From positions 1-44,154 of the forward strand of contig JAEWPN010000194.1 in NCBI GenBank assembly GCA_023399455.1: a stretch of DNA of 44,154 nt, read 5' to 3'. The notes below the pieces were generated by a model. That model ran no database searches. It had not been told where the DNA came from and saw nothing but the letters and a program-made list of their open reading frames with translations. This document shows positions 718-41,718 of this stretch, piece by piece (position 1 is the first letter of the stretch; the number at the start of each line of letters is the position of its first letter). The translations under genes and the position numbers were made by a program. This stretch comes from Bacillota bacterium (GTDB lineage Bacteria; Bacillota; Clostridia; Lachnospirales; Lachnospiraceae).

Positions 718-2469
718 ATGAAATATAGGAACATTACGGAGGGTGAATTTCTGGATCGTCCGAACCGTTTTATTGCCTATGTGGAAATAAACGGAAAAAG
801 GGAAAAGGTCCATGTGAAAAATACAGGAAGATGCAGGGAGCTTTTGGTTCACCGTGCTACGGTGTATCTGGAGAAGAGTGACAATGAGGAACGCTCCACT
901 GCCTATGATCTTGTAGCGGTAAAAAAAGGCGCGCGCATGATAAATATGGATTCGGCTGCTCCCAATAAAGCGGTGCACGAATGGCTTCTTAAGAAGGAGC
1001 TTTTCCCGGGATTAAAAAATGTATATCCGGAAAAGGTCTACAAAAATTCACGATTCGATTTTTATATAGAGACGGAGGAGGAAAATATCTTCCTCGAGGT
1101 AAAGGGTGTAACGCTGGAGCGGGATAATGCTGTGTATTTTCCCGATGCTCCGTCGGAGCGTGCCGTGAAGCATGTGGAAGAGCTGGCGGAGGCGGTAGAG
1201 GAAGGATATAGTGCGTATATTATATTAGTAATCCAGATGAGGGCGGTAGATTTTTTTGCACCTAATGTGGAAACTCATCCGGCCTTTGCGCAGGCGCTTT
1301 TGAAGGCGCGGGAGGCGGGAGTGAAGATCCTGGCTTACGACTGTGTTGTAACACCGGACAGCATGGAAATCGATAATCCGGTGCCGGTAGTATTGAACGA
1401 GCTGGACTTGATCGCGAGGCCGCTGCTTTCATGGTATGACAGCGGCAGGAGAATACTTCCATGGAGAGAACATCCTGCCCCTTATTATGTCTGGCTTTCC
1501 GAAATTATGCTGCAGCAGACGCGGGTAGAGGCAGTGAAGCCGTATTTTGACAGATTCATCAGTCAGGTACCCGATATAGAAAGCCTCGCCTGTTTGGAAG
1601 AAGAACGTCTGGTAAAGCTGTGGGAAGGATTAGGTTATTATAACAGGGTCCGTAATCTTCAGCGTGCTGCAAAAATAATTATGGAGGAGTACGAAGGCGT
1701 CATGCCCTCCGGGCATGAGGAACTTATGGCCCTTCCGGGAATCGGGAGCTATACGGCGGGGGCGATAGCCTCCATCGCCTATGGGAAAGTGGTGCCTGCG
1801 GTAGACGGCAACGTGTTGCGGGTGCTTTCCAGACTGCGTATGGACGGAGAGGATATCCTTTCCCAGAGGACGAAGAGCAGAGTGGAAAAGGAGTTGAGTG
1901 CCGTGATTCCGGGGGACAGGCCGGGCGACTTCAATCAGGCACTGATGGAGCTTGGTGCTACGGTGTGCCTGCCAAACGGTGTGCCGAAGTGTATGGAGTG
2001 CCCATGGAAGATATTTTGCAAGGCACATTTGCAGGATAGAATCTCTGAATTTCCGAAAAAGAAGACCAAGAAGGAAAGGGCTATAGAAGAAAAAACAGTG
2101 CTCGTCATTAAGGCGGAGGATAGGGCCGCTTTTGAAAAAAGACCGGAGAAGGGGCTGTTAGCGGGAATGTATGGTTTCCCTATGCTGGAGGGGCACTGCT
2201 CGGAGGAAGAGGTGCTTTACTTTCTAAGGACAAAGGGGCTGAGAGTTATTCGTATCCAGAGCATTGGAGAAGCGAAGCATATTTTTTCCCATAAGGAATG
2301 GCATATGAAAGGTTATGCGGTTAAAATTGACGAGCTGGACGCGCCGAATGATGGTGTGGCAAAAGCCGGCTGGATATTTGCCGATAAGGATGAGGCAAGA
2401 GAACGTTATCCGATTCCTGCGGCCTATGCGTCTTATGCCAAATATTTGGATATTAAGCTGGGAATATGA
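718..2469 (+). CDS. mutY: SfsA nuclease-like domain fused to MutY adenine DNA glycosylase
   Basis: One 583-residue protein carries two normally separate proteins. Residues 1 to about 226 are SfsA-like: DRPNRF near the start, NTGRC, the central FDFY and FLEVKGVTL motifs, and the HVEEL segment. Residues 227 to 583 are MutY, which removes adenine mispaired with 8-oxoguanine. Visible MutY features are the catalytic Glu in LSEIMLQQTRV (about E262), the helix-hairpin-helix LPGIGSYTAGA, the catalytic Asp in VDGNV (about D363), a four-cysteine cluster with spacing C-X7-C-X2-C-X5-C, and a C-terminal NUDIX-like mismatch-recognition domain containing GLLAGMYGFP. There is no stop or frame break between the parts. 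Both halves keep their key residues, so both are probably functional. It lacks a clear strong Shine-Dalgarno. Confidence 0.93.
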   Translation: MKYRNITEGEFLDRPNRFIAYVEINGKREKVHVKNTGRCRELLVHRATVYLEKSDNEERSTAYDLVAVKKGARMINMDSAAPNKAVHEWLLKKELFPGLKNVYPEKVYKNSRFDFYIETEEENIFLEVKGVTLERDNAVYFPDAPSERAVKHVEELAEAVEEGYSAYIILVIQMRAVDFFAPNVETHPAFAQALLKAREAGVKILAYDCVVTPDSMEIDNPVPVVLNELDLIARPLLSWYDSGRRILPWREHPAPYYVWLSEIMLQQTRVEAVKPYFDRFISQVPDIESLACLEEERLVKLWEGLGYYNRVRNLQRAAKIIMEEYEGVMPSGHEELMALPGIGSYTAGAIASIAYGKVVPAVDGNVLRVLSRLRMDGEDILSQRTKSRVEKELSAVIPGDRPGDFNQALMELGATVCLPNGVPKCMECPWKIFCKAHLQDRISEFPKKKTKKERAIEEKTVLVIKAEDRAAFEKRPEKGLLAGMYGFPMLEGHCSEEEVLYFLRTKGLRVIRIQSIGEAKHIFSHKEWHMKGYAVKIDELDAPNDGVAKAGWIFADKDEARERYPIPAAYASYAKYLDIKLGI

Positions 2470-2580
2470 CGAGGAATGAAATCTTCATTGTCTGTGCAGA
2501 ATAAGAGCATGAGCTAGATAAAAAAGCTGCTAAGGATGAAAATCATAAAATCCATGAATTTTAATGGTTGGAGGAAGAAA

Positions 2581-3606
2581 ATGAAGTTATTAACAATTGC
2601 GATACCCTGTTATAACTCGGAAGGGTATATGAGAAAATGTGTAGAGTCTCTGCTTACAGGCGGAGAGGATGTGGAAATTATCATAGTGGATGACGGTTCT
2701 AAGGACGGTACCGCGGTAATTGCAGACGAATATGCAGAAAAATATCCGTCCATTGTACGTGCTGTGCATAAAGAAAACGGAGGACATGGCTCGGCGGTGA
2801 ATACAGGAATAGAAAATGCCACCGGTTTGTTTTTCAAAGTGGTGGATAGCGACGACTGGGTAAAAGAAAGCGATTACATGCAGGTATTGGATACCCTGAG
2901 GAACTTGGCAGGGGGAGAAAAGGTACTGGATATGCTGATCAGCAACTTCGTCTATGAAAAAGAAGGCGAGAAAAGGAATAGGGTCATGCGTTATCACTAT
3001 GCCCTGCCTCGGGACGAAATGTTCTCATGGAATGATGTAAGATATTTCCGTAAGGGACAATACATCCTTATGCACTCCGTTATCTTTCGGACGAAACTTT
3101 TGAAGGATTGCGGACTGAAGCTGCCGGAGCACACTTTTTACGTGGACAACCTATATGTGTTCGAGCCTCTTCCTTTTGTAAAAAATATGTATTATCTCGA
3201 TGTGAATTTTTACCGCTACTACATCGGGCGGGAGGGCCAGTCGGTAAATGAAACTATCATGATTTCCAGAATCGACCAGCAAATCAAGGTGAATAAAATC
3301 ATGGTGGATTATATGGCGGAGAATAAGGCTAAAATAAAAGCGAACCGCAAAATGCGCAAATATATGTTTAACTATTTGGAAATCATAACGACGATTTCCT
3401 CAATACTCCTTATCCGTGGAGGAAGCGAGGAACATCTTACGAAAAAGAAGGAGCTCTGGGATTATATCAAGCAGAAGGATAGAATGCTTTATACAAGGCT
3501 TAGATACGGCATTCTCGGAAACTCTATGAATCTTCCCGGAAAGGGCGGCAGAAAGATTTCTGTAGAAGGTTACCGTATTTGCCAGCGCTTTTTCAAATTC
3601 AATTAA
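2581..3606 (+). CDS. Family 2 glycosyltransferase
   Basis: The GT-A fold signature is clear: LTIAIPCYNSE at the N-terminus, IIIVDDGSKDGT about 25 residues on, the NGGHGSAVNTGI acceptor-side motif, and the DSDDW metal-binding DxD. The C-terminal third is basic and helical without clear transmembrane segments, so the enzyme is probably cytoplasmic and acts on a lipid-linked or wall sugar acceptor. I take the second Met at 2581 because a GGAGG lies six bases upstream; the first Met, 45 bp earlier, has weaker support. It has 341 residues. A strong bidirectional terminator follows immediately. Donor and acceptor cannot be read from sequence. Confidence 0.9.
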   Translation: MKLLTIAIPCYNSEGYMRKCVESLLTGGEDVEIIIVDDGSKDGTAVIADEYAEKYPSIVRAVHKENGGHGSAVNTGIENATGLFFKVVDSDDWVKESDYMQVLDTLRNLAGGEKVLDMLISNFVYEKEGEKRNRVMRYHYALPRDEMFSWNDVRYFRKGQYILMHSVIFRTKLLKDCGLKLPEHTFYVDNLYVFEPLPFVKNMYYLDVNFYRYYIGREGQSVNETIMISRIDQQIKVNKIMVDYMAENKAKIKANRKMRKYMFNYLEIITTISSILLIRGGSEEHLTKKKELWDYIKQKDRMLYTRLRYGILGNSMNLPGKGGRKISVEGYRICQRFFKFN

Positions 3607-5429: not shown

Positions 5430-5444
5430 TTAAATATTCCTTAA
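5430..5444. other. attL: attL core candidate
   Basis: TTAAATATTCCTTAA occurs here and again at 41704-41718 in the same orientation. It lies between the last host gene and the integrase 3' end, in the expected place for a phage attachment core. The proposal assumes these repeats, not the 20-bp ones, are the crossover site. Confidence 0.6.
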
Positions 5445-5543: not shown

Positions 5544-6623
5544 TTATATCATATCTATGGCACTAATTAAATCAAACAGATCCTTTTGCACATAAACTCC
5601 ATTTGTGACATCTTGACGTTTATGCCCTAATATCATTTTTTTGCAATTTTCATTGACGCCGGCTCTATCCAATAAAGACGCGCAAGTATATTTTGTATCA
5701 TGGGGCAGGTGTTTCATTCCCAGTTTTTCCATTGCAGGATTCCAAATTTCGATTAAAAAGCTATTCCTCCAATATCGGTTGTCTTGTCGCTGCAAAAGAT
5801 AAATGTTGCCTTTGTCGTATATTTCCTCAATAAAAGGCATTATTTTCCTTGAAATAGGAATAATGCGGTCTTTTCCGGCCTTGGTCTTTATCCCTCCAAT
5901 CATGTATCTATCAGCAATATATACTTTGTCCGTAAGCTGTGAGAGCAGTTCTTCTATTCTAAATCCCGTATATATCATAATCAGTATTATTCTTACATTA
6001 AAATCATCTTTATTATTCCACAGCATATCAACTTCTTTACGGGAAAACATAGAGTGTTTTGATTCATCATTAGTCTTATATATAAATTCTATATCCGAGA
6101 CAAAATTTTCGGTGATATACTTTTGCTTTCTGGCCAAGTCGAACGTAAAATTTAGTATTATTTTCACATTCAAAACAGTTGAATATGACATCTCGGATAT
6201 ATCGTCTGCAATATCTTGGATATCTTGGAATTGTATCTTATCTATGCGTTTGCCGTGTACTGGTTTACATTTTTTAAAGGCGGATTTATAGGATGTGACT
6301 AACTGATCAGATACTCCACCTTTCTTTTTCCGTAGGTTCTCGGTATGACGATCAAGCCATAGTTCAAATAGTTCCTTGAAGGTAGGGCAGTATGATATGT
6401 TTGGCATAGTCCGCACATTTACGCCGCTGTTATACTTTGCTAATAAATCAATTGCAGCCGTTTTCCCCTCGGGCGTGCGAGGAAAATAGTCCAGGTACTT
6501 ATAATCGTTAATTTCTACTCCCTGCTTATTAAATTTTTTCCCGTTCGGAACACGTACTGCAATTGGCCTGCGCCTATTTTTTCCTAAATCAACTATAGTT
6601 CCGTATCCTGGTGGATTTCTCAT
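5544..6623 (-). CDS. int: Tyrosine recombinase (phage integrase)
   Basis: A 359-residue integrase that would join phage and host attachment sites. It has an N-terminal arm-binding region, a core-binding SAM-like domain at about residues 85-180, and a C-terminal catalytic domain. Visible catalytic positions are R222 in YTGFRIEEL, a Lys in IKTKAGKDR, H308 in HDTK, H334 in LGHKRQD and the nucleophile Y344. The second arginine (HxxR) is Lys here (K311). I chose the start at 6623 because AGGAGG lies seven bases upstream; the longer frame to 6677 has no such site. It reads toward attL, the usual layout. Confidence 0.93.
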   Translation of the reverse strand: MRNPPGYGTIVDLGKNRRRPIAVRVPNGKKFNKQGVEINDYKYLDYFPRTPEGKTAAIDLLAKYNSGVNVRTMPNISYCPTFKELFELWLDRHTENLRKKKGGVSDQLVTSYKSAFKKCKPVHGKRIDKIQFQDIQDIADDISEMSYSTVLNVKIILNFTFDLARKQKYITENFVSDIEFIYKTNDESKHSMFSRKEVDMLWNNKDDFNVRIILIMIYTGFRIEELLSQLTDKVYIADRYMIGGIKTKAGKDRIIPISRKIMPFIEEIYDKGNIYLLQRQDNRYWRNSFLIEIWNPAMEKLGMKHLPHDTKYTCASLLDRAGVNENCKKMILGHKRQDVTNGVYVQKDLFDLISAIDMI

Positions 6624-6663
6624 TGTATTTCCTCCTGATTTTGGGTATAAAAAATACACCCTA

Positions 6664-6693
6664 TTGCATGGGTGCACTATAATGTGCTATAAT
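6664..6693 (+). promoter_or_regulatory. Promoter for a short rightward RNA
   Basis: TTGCAT and TATAAT are separated by 18 bp. They lie in the integrase upstream region but point the other way, toward the terminator ending at 6778. A second TATAAT ten bases earlier is unpaired. Confidence 0.4.
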
Positions 6694-37242: not shown

Positions 37243-38436
37243 ATGACAATAGGAATTAACTGCGGGCATACCGTAAGCGGTGCCGGATATGGCGCTGTAG
37301 GCCTTATAAAAGAGTCGGAGCATACAAGACTTGTCGGTCATGCCCTTATGGAGAAATTACGTGCTGCGGGCGTGAGTGTGGTGGATTGTACTATTGATAC
37401 TGCCAACACACAAGCGGAATACCTTGCTGCAGCCGTTGCGCTGGCAAATCGTGAGGATTTGGACTGGTTTATCAGTATCCACTTTAACGCTTCCTCGGCG
37501 CATACCGGACAAGGGGTAGAAGTCTATACCTATGAGGGTAGGCAGTACCAGGATGCGCTTGATGTATGCAATAATATCGCGTCCTATGGCTTCAAAAACC
37601 GTGGGGTAAAGGCTGGTAGCGGACTGTATGTCATTAAGAGAACGAAGGATAAATCGATGCTGATAGAAGTCTGCTTTTGTGATAATAAAGAGGATGTAGA
37701 CCTATACAACAGTATCGGTGGTGCGGATACCATTGCTCAAGCTATTTTTAATGCCATCTATAATTATGCAGTAACTCCAGAGGATGTACCGGAAGAAAAT
37801 CACAATATGCCATTTGAAGAATTTGTGGAGTACGTGGGAGAAATTGCGCGGCAGGATTGGATTGACCGTAAGATTATGCTTCCTTCGGTTGTAGTGGCTC
37901 AGGCGATAAAGGAATCCGCGAGGGGAACTTCGGAACTTGCTCAGAATGCTAATGCCTTGTTCGGCATCAAGAAAAACGGCTGGACAGGCAAGACCTATAT
38001 CAAGATTGCTACAGAGCAACGTCCGGATGGAAGCTATTACACCGTAAACGACACTGAATGGAGAGCATACGGAAGTTGGAAAGAGTCGATTTTAGACCAC
38101 AACACATACATAGCTGAAAGAAGTGCGGACGGTGGAAAAACCTTGCGATACGGACCCATAATCGGCTGTGAAGAGTACGTGCTTGTTTGTCAGTATTTGC
38201 AGGATTTAGGATATGCCACATCGTTGACCTATGCGGAATCTCTCGTTAATGATTACATAGAGAAATATGAACTGACACGGTTTGATGCGGTAGAAGATGA
38301 ACTTGCACCGGATGGGAAGCTATGGGTGGTGCAACTTGGAGCCTACAGGAGCCGGAACAATGCGGAGAGGTTTATCAAACGGTTAGGGAGTATGGGAATA
38401 ATATCTCTTTTGAAACTTTATAATGTGGAAGAGTAA
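37243..38436 (+). CDS. Bifunctional endolysin: amidase plus glucosaminidase
   Basis: 397 residues in three parts. Residues 1-180 are an Amidase_3 zinc amidase with H9 (NCGH), a nearby acidic residue in KESEHTR, H80 (SIHFN) and catalytic E142 (LIEVCF). Residues about 185-345 are a GH73-like glucosaminidase (PSVVVAQAIKESARGTSELAQNANALFGIK, with Glu in KESARG). The last 40 residues, KLWVVQLGAYRSRNNAERF onward, resemble a SPOR-type peptidoglycan-binding domain. It cuts the host wall after holin opening. AAAGGAG precedes the ATG. A copy of its 3' end lies at 13035-13262. Confidence 0.92.
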   Translation: MTIGINCGHTVSGAGYGAVGLIKESEHTRLVGHALMEKLRAAGVSVVDCTIDTANTQAEYLAAAVALANREDLDWFISIHFNASSAHTGQGVEVYTYEGRQYQDALDVCNNIASYGFKNRGVKAGSGLYVIKRTKDKSMLIEVCFCDNKEDVDLYNSIGGADTIAQAIFNAIYNYAVTPEDVPEENHNMPFEEFVEYVGEIARQDWIDRKIMLPSVVVAQAIKESARGTSELAQNANALFGIKKNGWTGKTYIKIATEQRPDGSYYTVNDTEWRAYGSWKESILDHNTYIAERSADGGKTLRYGPIIGCEEYVLVCQYLQDLGYATSLTYAESLVNDYIEKYELTRFDAVEDELAPDGKLWVVQLGAYRSRNNAERFIKRLGSMGIISLLKLYNVEE

Positions 38437-38441
38437 GTGGG

Positions 38442-38481
38442 AGGCCCTAAGCTGTGATTTTTCATGGTTTGGGGCTTTTTT
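38442..38481 (+). terminator. Intrinsic terminator after the endolysin
   Basis: GCCCTAA pairs with TTTGGGGC (one G-U, slight bulge) across a GCTGTGATTTTTCATGG loop, followed by six Ts. Its loop resembles the one in the terminator at 13265, after the endolysin relic. Confidence 0.8.
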
Positions 38482-38622
38482 ATTGCACTTTGCCATCCAA
38501 AAGTAAAGCAAAATATATAAGAGACTAGATAAAATCATAAATTACATGAATTGAGTGTAGAAAAACATCTGTTTTTGGTATATAATGTTAAATTATAATA
38601 CTTATGATAGGGGAATGAAAAA

Positions 38623-39093
38623 TTGAATTGTATAGGAATTCGCGTGACGCCTAAAACAATATTTTTTTCTATTGTAAAGGTGGAAAATGAGAACTTCTCA
38701 ATCATTACAACAGAAAAAATAATAGTACCAGTGTCTATGGATGTGCCGGACCAATTAAGTTTTATCAGAACTACATTGTTTTCAGTAATAAAAGAATATC
38801 AAGTAATCCATGCTGGACTCCGCAGAATGGAGGATAACGCTCGAAGCGGAAGATTAGAGCCTATAATAAAAAGAGCATATCTTGAAGGCGTAATACAAGA
38901 ATTAATTTCCAATTGCTCAATCGAGAAATATTTTTCCGGGAAATTGTCACAGATCAGTTGCTTTTTAAAAATAAAAGATATCAAATCATGCGTAGAAGGC
39001 GATGCTAATATATATAGAATTGAAGATTGGAATAGCTACGCAAAAGAAGAAAGGGAAAGTATTGTATGCGCTTTAGCGGCGAGTACTTTGTAG
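38623..39093 (+). CDS. RNase H/RuvC-fold-like protein beside the kinase
   Basis: 156 residues read from a TTG start behind GGGG. The N-terminal strands (NCIGIRVTPKTIFFSIVKVE, NFSIITTEKIIVP) and a central helix GLRRMEDNARSGRLEPIIKRAYLEGVIQEL look like an RNase H/RuvC fold of the DUF3010 kind. The first-strand Asp of active nucleases is absent (GIRVTP), so it is probably not a standard nuclease. It ends seven bases before the kinase gene. A role with the kinase, as sensor, target or regulator, is inferred from that. The fold call is tentative. Confidence 0.6.
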   Translation: MNCIGIRVTPKTIFFSIVKVENENFSIITTEKIIVPVSMDVPDQLSFIRTTLFSVIKEYQVIHAGLRRMEDNARSGRLEPIIKRAYLEGVIQELISNCSIEKYFSGKLSQISCFLKIKDIKSCVEGDANIYRIEDWNSYAKEERESIVCALAASTL

Positions 39094-39100
39094 GTGGATT

Positions 39101-40162
39101 ATGTTTGATATTACAACTTCGATTGACTTGAGCACATTACAACCTTTAAATAATGAAGGAAAAAATTCATCCGTATACTCATACTGTGATAATCAACTGG
39201 GAAAAGATTTTATTGTTAAGGTAATAAGTAACGAAAAAGCATATAATCAATATGGTAGCGATTATATAAATAATTTATTTGCAGAATCTAAAATATTGTA
39301 TGCAAATAAACATCCAAATATAGTCGAGATACAATATGCAAGCTATGATGAGGATAATGTGTATATAAGTATGCCTAAATACAAAAATGGTTCGCTTAAT
39401 GCACTTATAGATTCCAAATTTCTTACAGTAAGAGAAGTATTAAAATTCGCTCTTGAATTTTTAAGCGGATTGCATTATGTACATACAAATGATTTGATAC
39501 ATTTTGACATAAAACCAACAAATATTTTAATTGACGATAATGGCAAGGCTGTTTTAACGGATTTTGGACTAGCTAAATATACAAAAACTGATGGAACAGC
39601 TACACCGGACATGATGTATACAGCGCATAAACCGCCTGAACATTTTAAAAATATAAAATTGACAAACAAATCGGACATATATCAAGCAGGAGTCACATTA
39701 TATAGATTATGTAATGGAAATGATATTTTCTGTAATCAATTTCAGGAATCAGCTAATTATGTAAATGATATAATTAATGGTAAGTTACCAAATAGAAAAT
39801 TTTATTTACCACACATACCATCGAAATTGCAGAAAATTATTAATAAATCAATAAGTGTAGATCCTGATGATAGGTATGATACTGTTTTAGATATGATAAA
39901 CCAGCTATCTAATATTAATGAAAATTTGGATTGGAGACCGACTACTATAAATGATGAATTAGCCTGGTCAATGCTAAACGATAAACGTACACATGAAGAT
40001 TATATTATATTATCAAAAGATGGGAATAATAAGTATAATGTTAAAAAAGTAAAGAAAAATTTAGAAAATGGGAAATTAATAAATGGTAGTTTGCCGAATT
40101 CTAAGAGTTTAGAATTATTAGAAGCATATAAATTAGTTGCAGGGATATTTAAAACGTGGTAA
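39101..40162 (+). CDS. Ser/Thr protein kinase
   Basis: 353 residues. The kinase domain fills residues 15-265 and keeps every key element: a Ser-rich phosphate loop (EGKNSSVYSY), K40 in IVKVIS, the helix-C Glu in FAESKIL, the catalytic HFDIKPTN (D136), DFG (D154) and a PPEHF end of the activation segment. HFD replaces HRD, so it may not need activation-loop phosphorylation. The remaining 90 residues are an unrelated basic tail without a membrane segment or PASTA repeats. AGGTGG precedes the ATG. It is the core of cargo cassette 2. Confidence 0.9.
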   Translation: MFDITTSIDLSTLQPLNNEGKNSSVYSYCDNQLGKDFIVKVISNEKAYNQYGSDYINNLFAESKILYANKHPNIVEIQYASYDEDNVYISMPKYKNGSLNALIDSKFLTVREVLKFALEFLSGLHYVHTNDLIHFDIKPTNILIDDNGKAVLTDFGLAKYTKTDGTATPDMMYTAHKPPEHFKNIKLTNKSDIYQAGVTLYRLCNGNDIFCNQFQESANYVNDIINGKLPNRKFYLPHIPSKLQKIINKSISVDPDDRYDTVLDMINQLSNINENLDWRPTTINDELAWSMLNDKRTHEDYIILSKDGNNKYNVKKVKKNLENGKLINGSLPNSKSLELLEAYKLVAGIFKTW

Positions 40163-40188
40163 AATCTAATTAAATGGAGGTGATATCT

Positions 40189-40374
40189 ATGTTTAAAGTT
40201 GTTAATCAAGCTAAAAAAGTCTCCAGGAAAAATTTAGCTGATAAAAGCCTTGGCATACCATATCACGACAGACTGGGTAAGTCGCAAAACTCTGAAACAT
40301 ATGCCCCATTTTTCCCAGTAGATTGTGGAAATGGATATTCTAGGTTTGAGTATGTTAAGACTCACAATATATAA
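40189..40374 (+). CDS. Small protein after the kinase (61 aa)
   Basis: 61 residues, basic at the start (FKVVNQAKKVSRKNLADKS) and aromatic at the end (YAPFFPVDCGNGYSRFEY). The ATG has GGAGGTG seven bases upstream, one of the strongest sites in the window, so it is probably well translated. It lies 26 bases after the kinase stop and before the cassette terminator. It may be a kinase substrate, inhibitor or structural partner; the sequence does not show which. No family recognised. Confidence 0.6.
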   Translation: MFKVVNQAKKVSRKNLADKSLGIPYHDRLGKSQNSETYAPFFPVDCGNGYSRFEYVKTHNI

Positions 40375-40434
40375 ATGTTATAAAGTTTACTTGATAAAAT
40401 TTGAACGAGACAAATAACAACAAAAGATTTAAAG

Positions 40435-40460
40435 GGCGGCCCCACAGCCGCCTTTTCTAT
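40435..40460 (+). terminator. Intrinsic terminator ending cargo cassette 2
   Basis: GGCGGC (40435-40440) pairs with GCCGCC (40447-40452) and is followed by TTTT. It repeats the terminator after cassette 1 with one base difference in the loop. Confidence 0.85.
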
Positions 40461-40575: not shown

Positions 40576-40894
40576 TCAAATATCTTTCGCCACGCCCTCC
40601 AGCGTCTCAATAAATTTCTTCCCGAATTCGTTCTCCATATCAACATCATCCCACTCAATCCCTGGAACGGCATATACGACAAAGGCCTTGTATAATTCCG
40701 TATTCTGTATAGATAAAAACAAAGCGGCCCTATCTACCGCATTCTTGCACATAATTCTCATATCCCCTTGGGATATGTCATACTTAGAGTGTGCATCCTC
40801 GATAACTTCCCGGAATATAAAATTTGCCAAAGCCTTGGCATAAGCATCTTTTTGTGTGGTTGCTAATTGATAAAGTTGTTTTTCGAAAATCCAT
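40576..40894 (-). pseudogene. Frameshifted small phage gene near attR
   Basis: The minus frame from 40830 to 40576 encodes an acidic, helical protein (FREVIEDAHSKYDISQGDMRI, DDVDMENEFGKKFIETL). The frame continues upstream as FEKQLYQLATTQKDAYAKALA but has no start codon. An ATG at 40894 with AGGAGGG upstream is in another frame. Removing one base from the A4 run at 40886-40889 would join them into about 105 residues starting MDFEKQLYQL. Either the gene is broken or the run length is a sequence error. Function unknown. Confidence 0.6.
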
Positions 40895-41080: not shown

Positions 41081-41278
41081 ATGAAAATCAATTTGCGCGA
41101 ATTGAGATTGGAAAATAATATATCAGTCAGGGGGCTTGCAAAATTATCGGGCGTAAGCGCCAGCGCTATCAGCAGGATTGAAAACGAGGGCGTAACACCG
41201 TCGTTATTAACAATTTGCAAGCTGCGCTGTGCGCTTAACGTGGGGATAGAAAAAATGGTGGATTGTGAAGAAGAGTAG
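41081..41278 (+). CDS. Small XRE regulator near attR (65 aa)
   Basis: A single helix-turn-helix domain fills all 65 residues: LRELRLENNISVRGLAKLSGV, then ASAISRIENEGVTPSLLTICKL, then a short acidic end (DCEEE). GGAGG lies seven bases before the ATG. It stands next to the LexA-controlled small gene at 41388, separated by a promoter. It may repress that gene or the right end of the prophage. It is not a copy of the Cro-like regulator at 8444. Confidence 0.8.
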   Translation: MKINLRELRLENNISVRGLAKLSGVSASAISRIENEGVTPSLLTICKLRCALNVGIEKMVDCEEE

Positions 41279-41312
41279 TACGATGTGTTTTTCATTGTAC
41301 TATATCTTGTGG

Positions 41313-41341
41313 TTGAAAAATAAGAACATATGTTCTATAAT
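41313..41341 (+). promoter_or_regulatory. SOS (LexA) promoter
   Basis: TTGAAA (41313-41318) and TATAAT (41336-41341) are spaced by 17 bp. The spacer contains GAACATATGTTC (41324-41335), a perfect Bacillus-type LexA box. A second box, AAACATGTGTTC (41352-41363), has one mismatch. LexA bound here would block the promoter until DNA damage. Confidence 0.8.
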
Positions 41342-41387
41342 GAGATTTAACAAACATGTGTTCGATTATTTATGGAGGGCGTTACGG

Positions 41388-41588
41388 ATGACTAAAGAGG
41401 AAGTGTGCGAAGAATTAGTAAAGTATGTATTAGCGGCGGAAAATGAATGCAAAACAATCAATCCAGAGGATTTTTCGAAGTGGAAGAATGATATATTAAG
41501 TAGGTGCAGCGCGGGGGATAGCTCAGTATATCGGCTTATGGAAGGGGTTGTTGATATTATTTGGAAAGACATATATACAAAAACATAA
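41388..41588 (+). CDS. SOS-controlled small protein (66 aa)
   Basis: 66 residues, acidic and helical: TKEEVCEELVKYVLAAENECK, PEDFSKWKNDILSRCSAGDSS, VYRLMEGVVDIIWKDIYTK. The start at 41388 has GGAGGG eight bases upstream. A LexA-boxed promoter drives it and a terminator follows at once, so it is a single-gene SOS unit beside attR. A prophage protein made only on DNA damage could be an antirepressor or excision helper. The sequence itself gives no function, and no known family is evident. Confidence 0.65.
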   Translation: MTKEEVCEELVKYVLAAENECKTINPEDFSKWKNDILSRCSAGDSSVYRLMEGVVDIIWKDIYTKT

Positions 41589-41703: not shown

Positions 41704-41718
41704 TTAAATATTCCTTAA
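41704..41718. other. attR: attR core candidate
   Basis: This is the right copy of the 15-bp repeat at 5430-5444, in direct orientation. Host-type sequence, including the terminator of a minus-strand gene, begins just after it. Confidence 0.6.

Follow-up and report, generated by a model that had tools for sequence, protein, structure and literature searches.

A prophage-borne cassette of a RuvC-like pseudo-nuclease, an Stk-type protein kinase and a small basic protein, a probable phage-exclusion system

We analysed a stretch of 44,154 nucleotides from a Bacillota bacterium of the family Lachnospiraceae (assembly GCA_023399455.1, contig JAEWPN010000194.1; hereafter the window), and in it a cassette of three genes, A, B and C, which lies behind the endolysin gene of a prophage (Table 1). 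As a first-pass annotation of this DNA had stated, the three genes are tightly packed (all on the + strand, between 38623 and 40374, with a gap of 7 nt between A and B) and low in guanine and cytosine (GC content 0.344, 0.279 and 0.349 for A, B and C, against 0.456 for the endolysin gene and 0.435 for the structural region). For gene C, the mechanically called open reading frame (ORF) begins at 40174 and codes for 66 amino acids (aa), but the ribosome binding site GGAGGTG favours the ATG at 40189, which gives a protein of 61 aa.

Table 1. Coordinates of the cassette genes and of the signals and prophage features around them
Feature	Coordinates	Strand	Remarks
Gene A: RuvC-fold pseudo-nuclease, 156 aa; candidate sensor	38623..39093	+	TTG start; PHROG 3875
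Gene B: Stk-type protein kinase, 353 aa; candidate effector	39101..40162	+	Pkinase; PHROG 2361
Gene C: small basic protein, 61 aa; candidate regulator or substrate	40189..40374	+	ATG after GGAGGTG
Candidate sigma-70-like promoter, TAGAAA-17-TATAAT	38558..38586	+	Agrees with the consensus at 10/12 positions; 36 nt upstream of A
Terminator-like hairpin after the endolysin gene, insulating the cassette upstream	38439..38480	+	RNA fold -25.4 kcal/mol, z -7.07
Terminator-like hairpin at the end of the cassette	40431..40456	+	RNA fold -15.9 kcal/mol, z -3.78
Endolysin	37243-38436		Same-strand cassette lies between it and the prophage right end
Candidate attL core (prophage left end)	5430..5444	+	15-bp repeat; integrase adjoins
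Candidate attR core (prophage right end)	41704..41718	+	15-bp repeat; cassette thus inside the prophage near its right end
Integrase	5544-6677		Beside the left repeat copy

Relatives of gene A were collected with an alignment search, which yielded 22 loci from bacterial genomes and 55 from viral contigs; with the phages phi24B and SPbetaL7 this makes 79 loci. Alignments were needed for this, since scans of the viral contigs with A and B as single sequences returned no relatives. A kinase gene follows A on the same strand in 77 of the 79 loci, starting as a rule between −51 and +13 nt from the end of A, and the remaining two (L029 and L030) end directly after A at contig edges. The kinase is split or shortened in three loci (L033, L051 and L057). 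The search from the side of the kinase gave the same picture: 66 of the 67 close kinases (E <= 2e-52) have A; in 63 the two genes adjoin, in three the kinase is split or shortened, and the single one without A begins at a contig edge. The first scan had already yielded 53 of the 67 contigs; of the 14 that were new, all 13 that could be tested have A. Within a phage collection of 50,697 records gene A matches only 14, and the same 14 rank at the top for gene B: SPbetaL6 and SPbetaL7 of Bacillus and twelve E. coli phage records with a 933W-like immunity region, some of which are duplicates (933W's own record is not among the 14). The first-pass annotation had proposed a search for the pair elsewhere and had reasoned that genes not travelling together would speak against a module; this objection clearly fails.

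Eleven distant kinases follow the 67 close ones, and one of them, in L147 (IMG/VR contig, 1978-3475; 29% kinase identity), also has a RuvC-type neighbour, which passes the Pfam RuvC cut-off (29.3 against 22.2 bits). In another distant pair, L179 (297-1860, Pseudomonadota genome G443), a DUF3010 protein (PF11215, 81 bits) is encoded directly upstream of a protein kinase; this is possibly a sister arrangement of an RNase H-fold protein and a kinase. No gene C-like copy accompanies these two most distant pairs, as no basic small ORF comes after the kinase in L147 and no recognisable gene C-like ORF downstream of it in L179.

When genomes were drawn evenly from three phyla and the centre genomes set aside, A with an adjacent kinase was found in one genome each of the 397 Bacillota and the 397 Pseudomonadota and in three of the 295 Bacteroidota; the set is therefore rare and scattered. 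The DUF3010-kinase pair of L179 comes from one further Pseudomonadota genome of this sample. Among 5426 complete E. coli genomes a close copy was present in 223, in 221 of which at least 80% of the cassette is covered. Gene A was also found on five plasmid records, and some copies on bacterial contigs stand beside restriction or transposase genes. On a Mesorhizobium plasmid (L196, 2910-5483) the cassette comes after DUF4433 and macro-domain genes, a pair typical of DarTG-like systems, and this copy may lie in a defence cluster. Altogether the three-gene set occurs far beyond chance and recurs in Bacillota, Pseudomonadota and Bacteroidota.

Gene B codes for a complete protein kinase (Pkinase, E 3.3e-41; PHROG 2361, E 4.2e-74), with a kinase domain at about residues 19-260 and a beta-rich C-terminal domain at about 278-353; the latter, of some 75 residues, ends in a helix (model pLDDT 89.3). 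The gene B kinases of the window and of 38 of the 41 non-redundant loci (those left after collapsing gene A at 90% identity; all but L017, L024 and the split L033) were aligned. All catalytic residues are kept, as the first-pass annotation had noted for the window: K40, E62, D136, K138, N141, D154, F155 and G156 are invariant in all 39. The arginine of the HRD motif is missing throughout (F in 31, L in 5, V, C and M in one each), which makes this a non-RD kinase. The sensor and membrane parts of PrkC-type host kinases were said to be lacking, and a soluble kinase is supported here. Against the full-length PknB_PASTA model gene B scores 133.6, where 450 is required, with a match that ends at residue 283, and Pfam reports no PASTA domain. 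The NCBIfam cut-off for MAD6 is not reached either (135.5 against 460).

The product of gene A adopts, over its full length, a degenerate RuvC fold according to an AlphaFold2 model (pLDDT 93.4) and a structure search, in agreement with the degenerate RNase H/RuvC fold that had been suspected from the letters. Among its closest counterparts are the Holliday-junction resolvase RuvC and the RuvC-like domains of TEFM, Tex and Spt6, from which it differs in that two catalytic acids are replaced by arginine (R7 and R67) in all 45 aligned relatives. The catalytic acids of E. coli RuvC are D7, E66, D138 and D141. In a profile alignment to four bona fide RuvC proteins R7 falls on the first Asp, and the alignment stops at L66, beside the Glu. 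Position 142 is E in 35 of the 45 relatives, and E145, which matches a catalytic acid, is present in all of them. The full set of four acids is thus not found in gene A, and arginine at two of these positions should disturb metal binding. Similarity to RuvC at the level of Pfam is faint: gene A of the window stays below the gathering score (13 against 22.2 bits), and 17 of the 45 relatives match at E <= 0.1 (best 1.3e-4). For gene A of the window, Pfam gives no DUF3010 (PF11215) match at E 1 or better, and one of the 45 relatives matches it at E 0.092. The fold of a junction resolvase without two of the catalytic acids suggests that the protein reads DNA structure. In enterobacterial pairs purifying selection is stronger on gene A than on B or C: dN/dS is 0.05-0.09 for A and 0.08-0.10 for B (three computable pairs each) and 0.20-0.40 for C (four pairs), although these are rough values, several dS exceeding 1 and one of the four pairs not being computable for A and B.

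Gene C is a genuine gene. In all 41 non-redundant loci an ORF of 50-84 aa begins between −28 and +54 nt from the kinase stop, and with the window added its product has an isoelectric point (pI) above 8.8 in 42 of 42 cases, compared with 21 of 161 other ORF ends followed by a like ORF (these control ends are mechanical ORFs of at least 200 aa, not curated genes). A motif, D-x-G-N-G-[YF], is found in 34 of the 42 copies against 5 of the 161 controls, and is common to gene C of the window and some Bacillota and Bacteroidota copies. Both the pI limit and the motif were chosen after viewing the 42 copies, so that the 14 contigs reached only via the kinase are the fair test: a small ORF of 53-75 aa is present in all 13 that were testable, and in 12 its pI is above 8.8. 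The one exception, L142 (IMG/VR contig, region 2375-3500), has an acidic small ORF of 60 aa with a pI of 5.7. Five further sampled genomes have an ORF of 57-74 aa at the position of gene C, and the E. coli copy is labelled hypothetical protein in RefSeq. The dN/dS values given above for C in enterobacterial relatives indicate purifying selection and show that the gene is coding there.

By sequence similarity the family is much harder to follow. A search of 5.8 billion proteins with gene C returned only 2 near copies, and the family was therefore assembled by genome position. When a profile of 29 non-Firmicute copies was run against the 750 ORFs of 13 Firmicute loci, four true copies ranked first (E 6e-6 to 6e-3) and gene C of the window ranked tenth (E 1.7); with the reverse profile (13 copies against 1793 ORFs) a false ORF came out on top and the best true copy had an E of 0.44, the division into Firmicute and non-Firmicute loci being our own assignment, provisional for the hosts of viral contigs. 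Homology of gene C across groups is weak, and the case for it rests on position, size, charge and selection.

The closest characterised homologue of the kinase is Stk of phage 933W, which is reported to be made together with the repressor (it is cotranscribed with cI), to be activated upon infection by HK97 and to abort that infection (PMC3564112, PMC3681748, PMC6356687); its activity in uninfected cells is limited, if any (PMC3681748). In phi24B-type phages the kinase is 43-44% identical to that of the window over 77% and the RuvC-like gene directly upstream of it 30% identical over 98%, and in phi24B a small ORF of 54 aa lies directly downstream. The three genes of phi24B come in this order downstream of cI, within the immunity region and separated from cI by one small gene; of the three, only stk is annotated. 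In lambda this place behind the repressor is that of rexAB. The window differs in that the cassette comes after the endolysin gene and has no repressor upstream. Because its kinase is homologous, with intact catalytic residues, and the architecture is that of phi24B (RuvC-like gene upstream, small basic ORF downstream), the cassette is by sequence a system of the Stk kind, at another position and in another type of prophage. The same three genes in the same order are gp73-gp72-gp71 of SPbetaL7, with identities to the window of 42% for A and 47% for B, and gp71 shares the D-x-G-N-G-[YF] motif with gene C; SPbetaL6 and SPbetaL7 are of another phage type, with the cassette at another position, and annotate only hypothetical proteins.

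KKP (PfkA-PfkB-PfpC) of Pf prophages is likewise a kinase module carried by prophages, and is reported to act in defence and to inhibit growth (PMC11341870), but consists of two kinases and a phosphatase, whereas the window cassette has one kinase and a RuvC-like protein, and neither A nor C matches a phosphatase family. Stk2 of staphylococci is also a phage-protective kinase but is host-encoded, as a single locus (cited in PMC11341870). Among the PADLOC models, whose matches are given without cut-offs, the kinase domain of gene B resembles mad6 (E 3.8e-48) and PD-T4-6 (E 3e-41). PD-T4-6 is a stand-alone defensive kinase of a single gene, whereas the kinase of the window sits in a three-gene set. 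The first-pass annotation had called the module undescribed. This has to be withdrawn for the kinase, whose family is known (PHROG 2361) and whose member Stk is published; the three-gene composition is apparently undescribed, a literature search that did not extend to the primary Stk papers having returned no description of the RuvC-like and small partners.

We consider the cassette to be probably a prophage-borne phage-exclusion (abortive-infection) system of the Stk type, made of three conserved proteins, with the RuvC-like protein as candidate sensor and the kinase as candidate effector. The role of the kinase as effector is supported by its homologue in 933W. For the earlier proposal of a sensor-kinase trigger that halts growth on superinfection, homology to 933W Stk, which is reported to act against HK97, speaks for abortive infection; we infer that this copy behaves as the 933W kinase does, and likewise the sensing role of the RuvC-like protein, its triggering by DNA intermediates or a recombinase, and the place of the small protein. 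The kinase would be kept quiet in the lysogen until the RuvC-fold pseudo-nuclease senses an early event of the infecting phage, most likely intermediates of phage DNA recombination or replication, or the recombinase that makes them. The kinase would then phosphorylate itself and cell proteins, growth would stop, the intruder would not be released and neighbouring lysogens would survive. The small basic protein would act at the kinase, as a brake, an adaptor or the first substrate. Also in favour of this reading are the constant company of the three genes, the RuvC fold lacking two catalytic acids, the non-RD character of the kinase and the cI-like repressor found upstream in 14 of the 41 loci. 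With regard to the trigger, the order in the HK97 table (early region) is Gp40, an Erf-like single-stranded DNA annealing protein, 'recombinase' entries and Gp43, which would make Gp41 either Erf or the product encoded next to it. Friedman et al. in 2011 reportedly named orf41 as the HK97 trigger; if so, a protein of phage recombination would set off a system that includes a dead resolvase. According to a 2025 paper, phage recombinases are the target of various defence systems that are unrelated to one another (PMC11846896).

Several points weigh against this interpretation. A phage effect is on record for the 933W copy only, and 933W was compared only through phi24B, whose record names stk and a region similar to 933W. 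For 933W exclusion the kinase alone is named (PMC3564112, PMC3681748, PMC6356687), so A and C may be dispensable; at one locus described below the kinase can persist without A, and no PADLOC model is matched by A or C. The two arginines of gene A are not both kept in its distant relatives (K67 in L182 and L183, K7 in L147). Finally, the C-terminal domain of gene B has no confident structural or Pfam match, and the specificity of the 933W kinase is reported as tyrosine.

The strongest alternative is a tripartite toxin-antitoxin system, in which the kinase is a toxin braked by the small basic protein, the RuvC-like protein or both, and phage attack lifts the brake, as in KKP with its phosphatase. 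We regard it as possible but on balance rather doubtful. The position of the small partner, directly downstream of the kinase gene and often overlapping it, would suit such a system, as would four loci (L191-L194) in which the kinase is marked frameshifted or incomplete while A is intact, C being annotated in three. However, these four had been selected from the 60 rows listed on account of their odd lengths, and no rate can be drawn from them, the kinase being the longest gene. Moreover, a kinase with little or no activity in uninfected cells, as reported for Stk (PMC3681748), needs no brake. A natural disruption of the sensor candidate is seen in E. coli O45:H2 (L190, 151-3132), where an IS3-family insertion lies inside gene A while the kinase and C are annotated intact; this speaks against A as an obligate antitoxin, provided that the kinase or the operon is not silenced by the insertion.

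It is improbable that the cassette serves chiefly in prophage control, the kinase phosphorylating a repressor or a host silencer and thereby tuning induction, with exclusion as a by-product. KKP does govern prophage production besides defence (PMC11341870), and a co-oriented gene for a cI-like repressor is found no more than 1.6 kb upstream in 14 of the 41 loci. In the other 27 no such repressor was found upstream, with a profile seeded with one cI and with less than 1 kb of upstream DNA in six of them. The window cassette, at the far right end of the prophage after the endolysin gene, is also placed unfavourably for such a function, as are the copies beside restriction or transposase genes and those on plasmid records. 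It is very improbable that the RuvC-like protein acts as the effector, as a nuclease which phosphorylation would activate, given arginine at two catalytic-acid positions in all 45 relatives and only E145 matching a catalytic acid in all of them.

Going beyond the exclusion reading for this copy, we tentatively offer a broader proposal, which we would sooner doubt than accept: a widespread immune system of three proteins that has so far gone unrecognised, whose sensor, a catalytically dead Holliday-junction resolvase, would detect the recombination structures of a phage or its annealing recombinase and switch on a non-RD eukaryote-like kinase via a small basic adaptor. 933W Stk would be its first, incompletely described case, and DUF3010 together with a kinase may form a sister version. 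Stk has been treated as a single kinase without a named sensor (PMC3564112, PMC3681748, PMC6356687); the set kept in three phyla supplies candidates for sensor and regulator and makes the question of kinase activation directly testable. A dead resolvase driving a kinase would, if true, be an unusual way of detecting phage DNA metabolism. The set could be entered in libraries used in defence finding by a simple rule of gene order: PHROG 3875 followed by PHROG 2361 and by a small ORF that is in most cases basic.

Regarding expression signals, the cassette had been credited with its own terminators. The hairpin after gene C agrees with this, whereas the upstream hairpin most likely ends the endolysin unit. 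Neither was listed by a simple consensus scan of the region, in which terminator-like sites (1 against 1.0 in shuffled sequences) and promoter-like sites (13 against 12.4) were at chance level; the candidate promoter before A is therefore of a kind no commoner than chance there.

The bounds of the prophage are given by the exact 15-bp repeat, for which 0.03 matches are expected in shuffled sequences. Host-type genes lie outside both repeat copies, those to the right of 41704-41718 being of PdaC and amidase type. Beyond the cassette terminator and facing the cassette, an ORF of 84 aa without known family is found on the - strand (40576-40830). Between the cassette and the right repeat there are also a small ORF without known family (41265-41588) and a gene for a Cro/CI-type regulator (41081-41278; HTH_3, E 2.6e-13).
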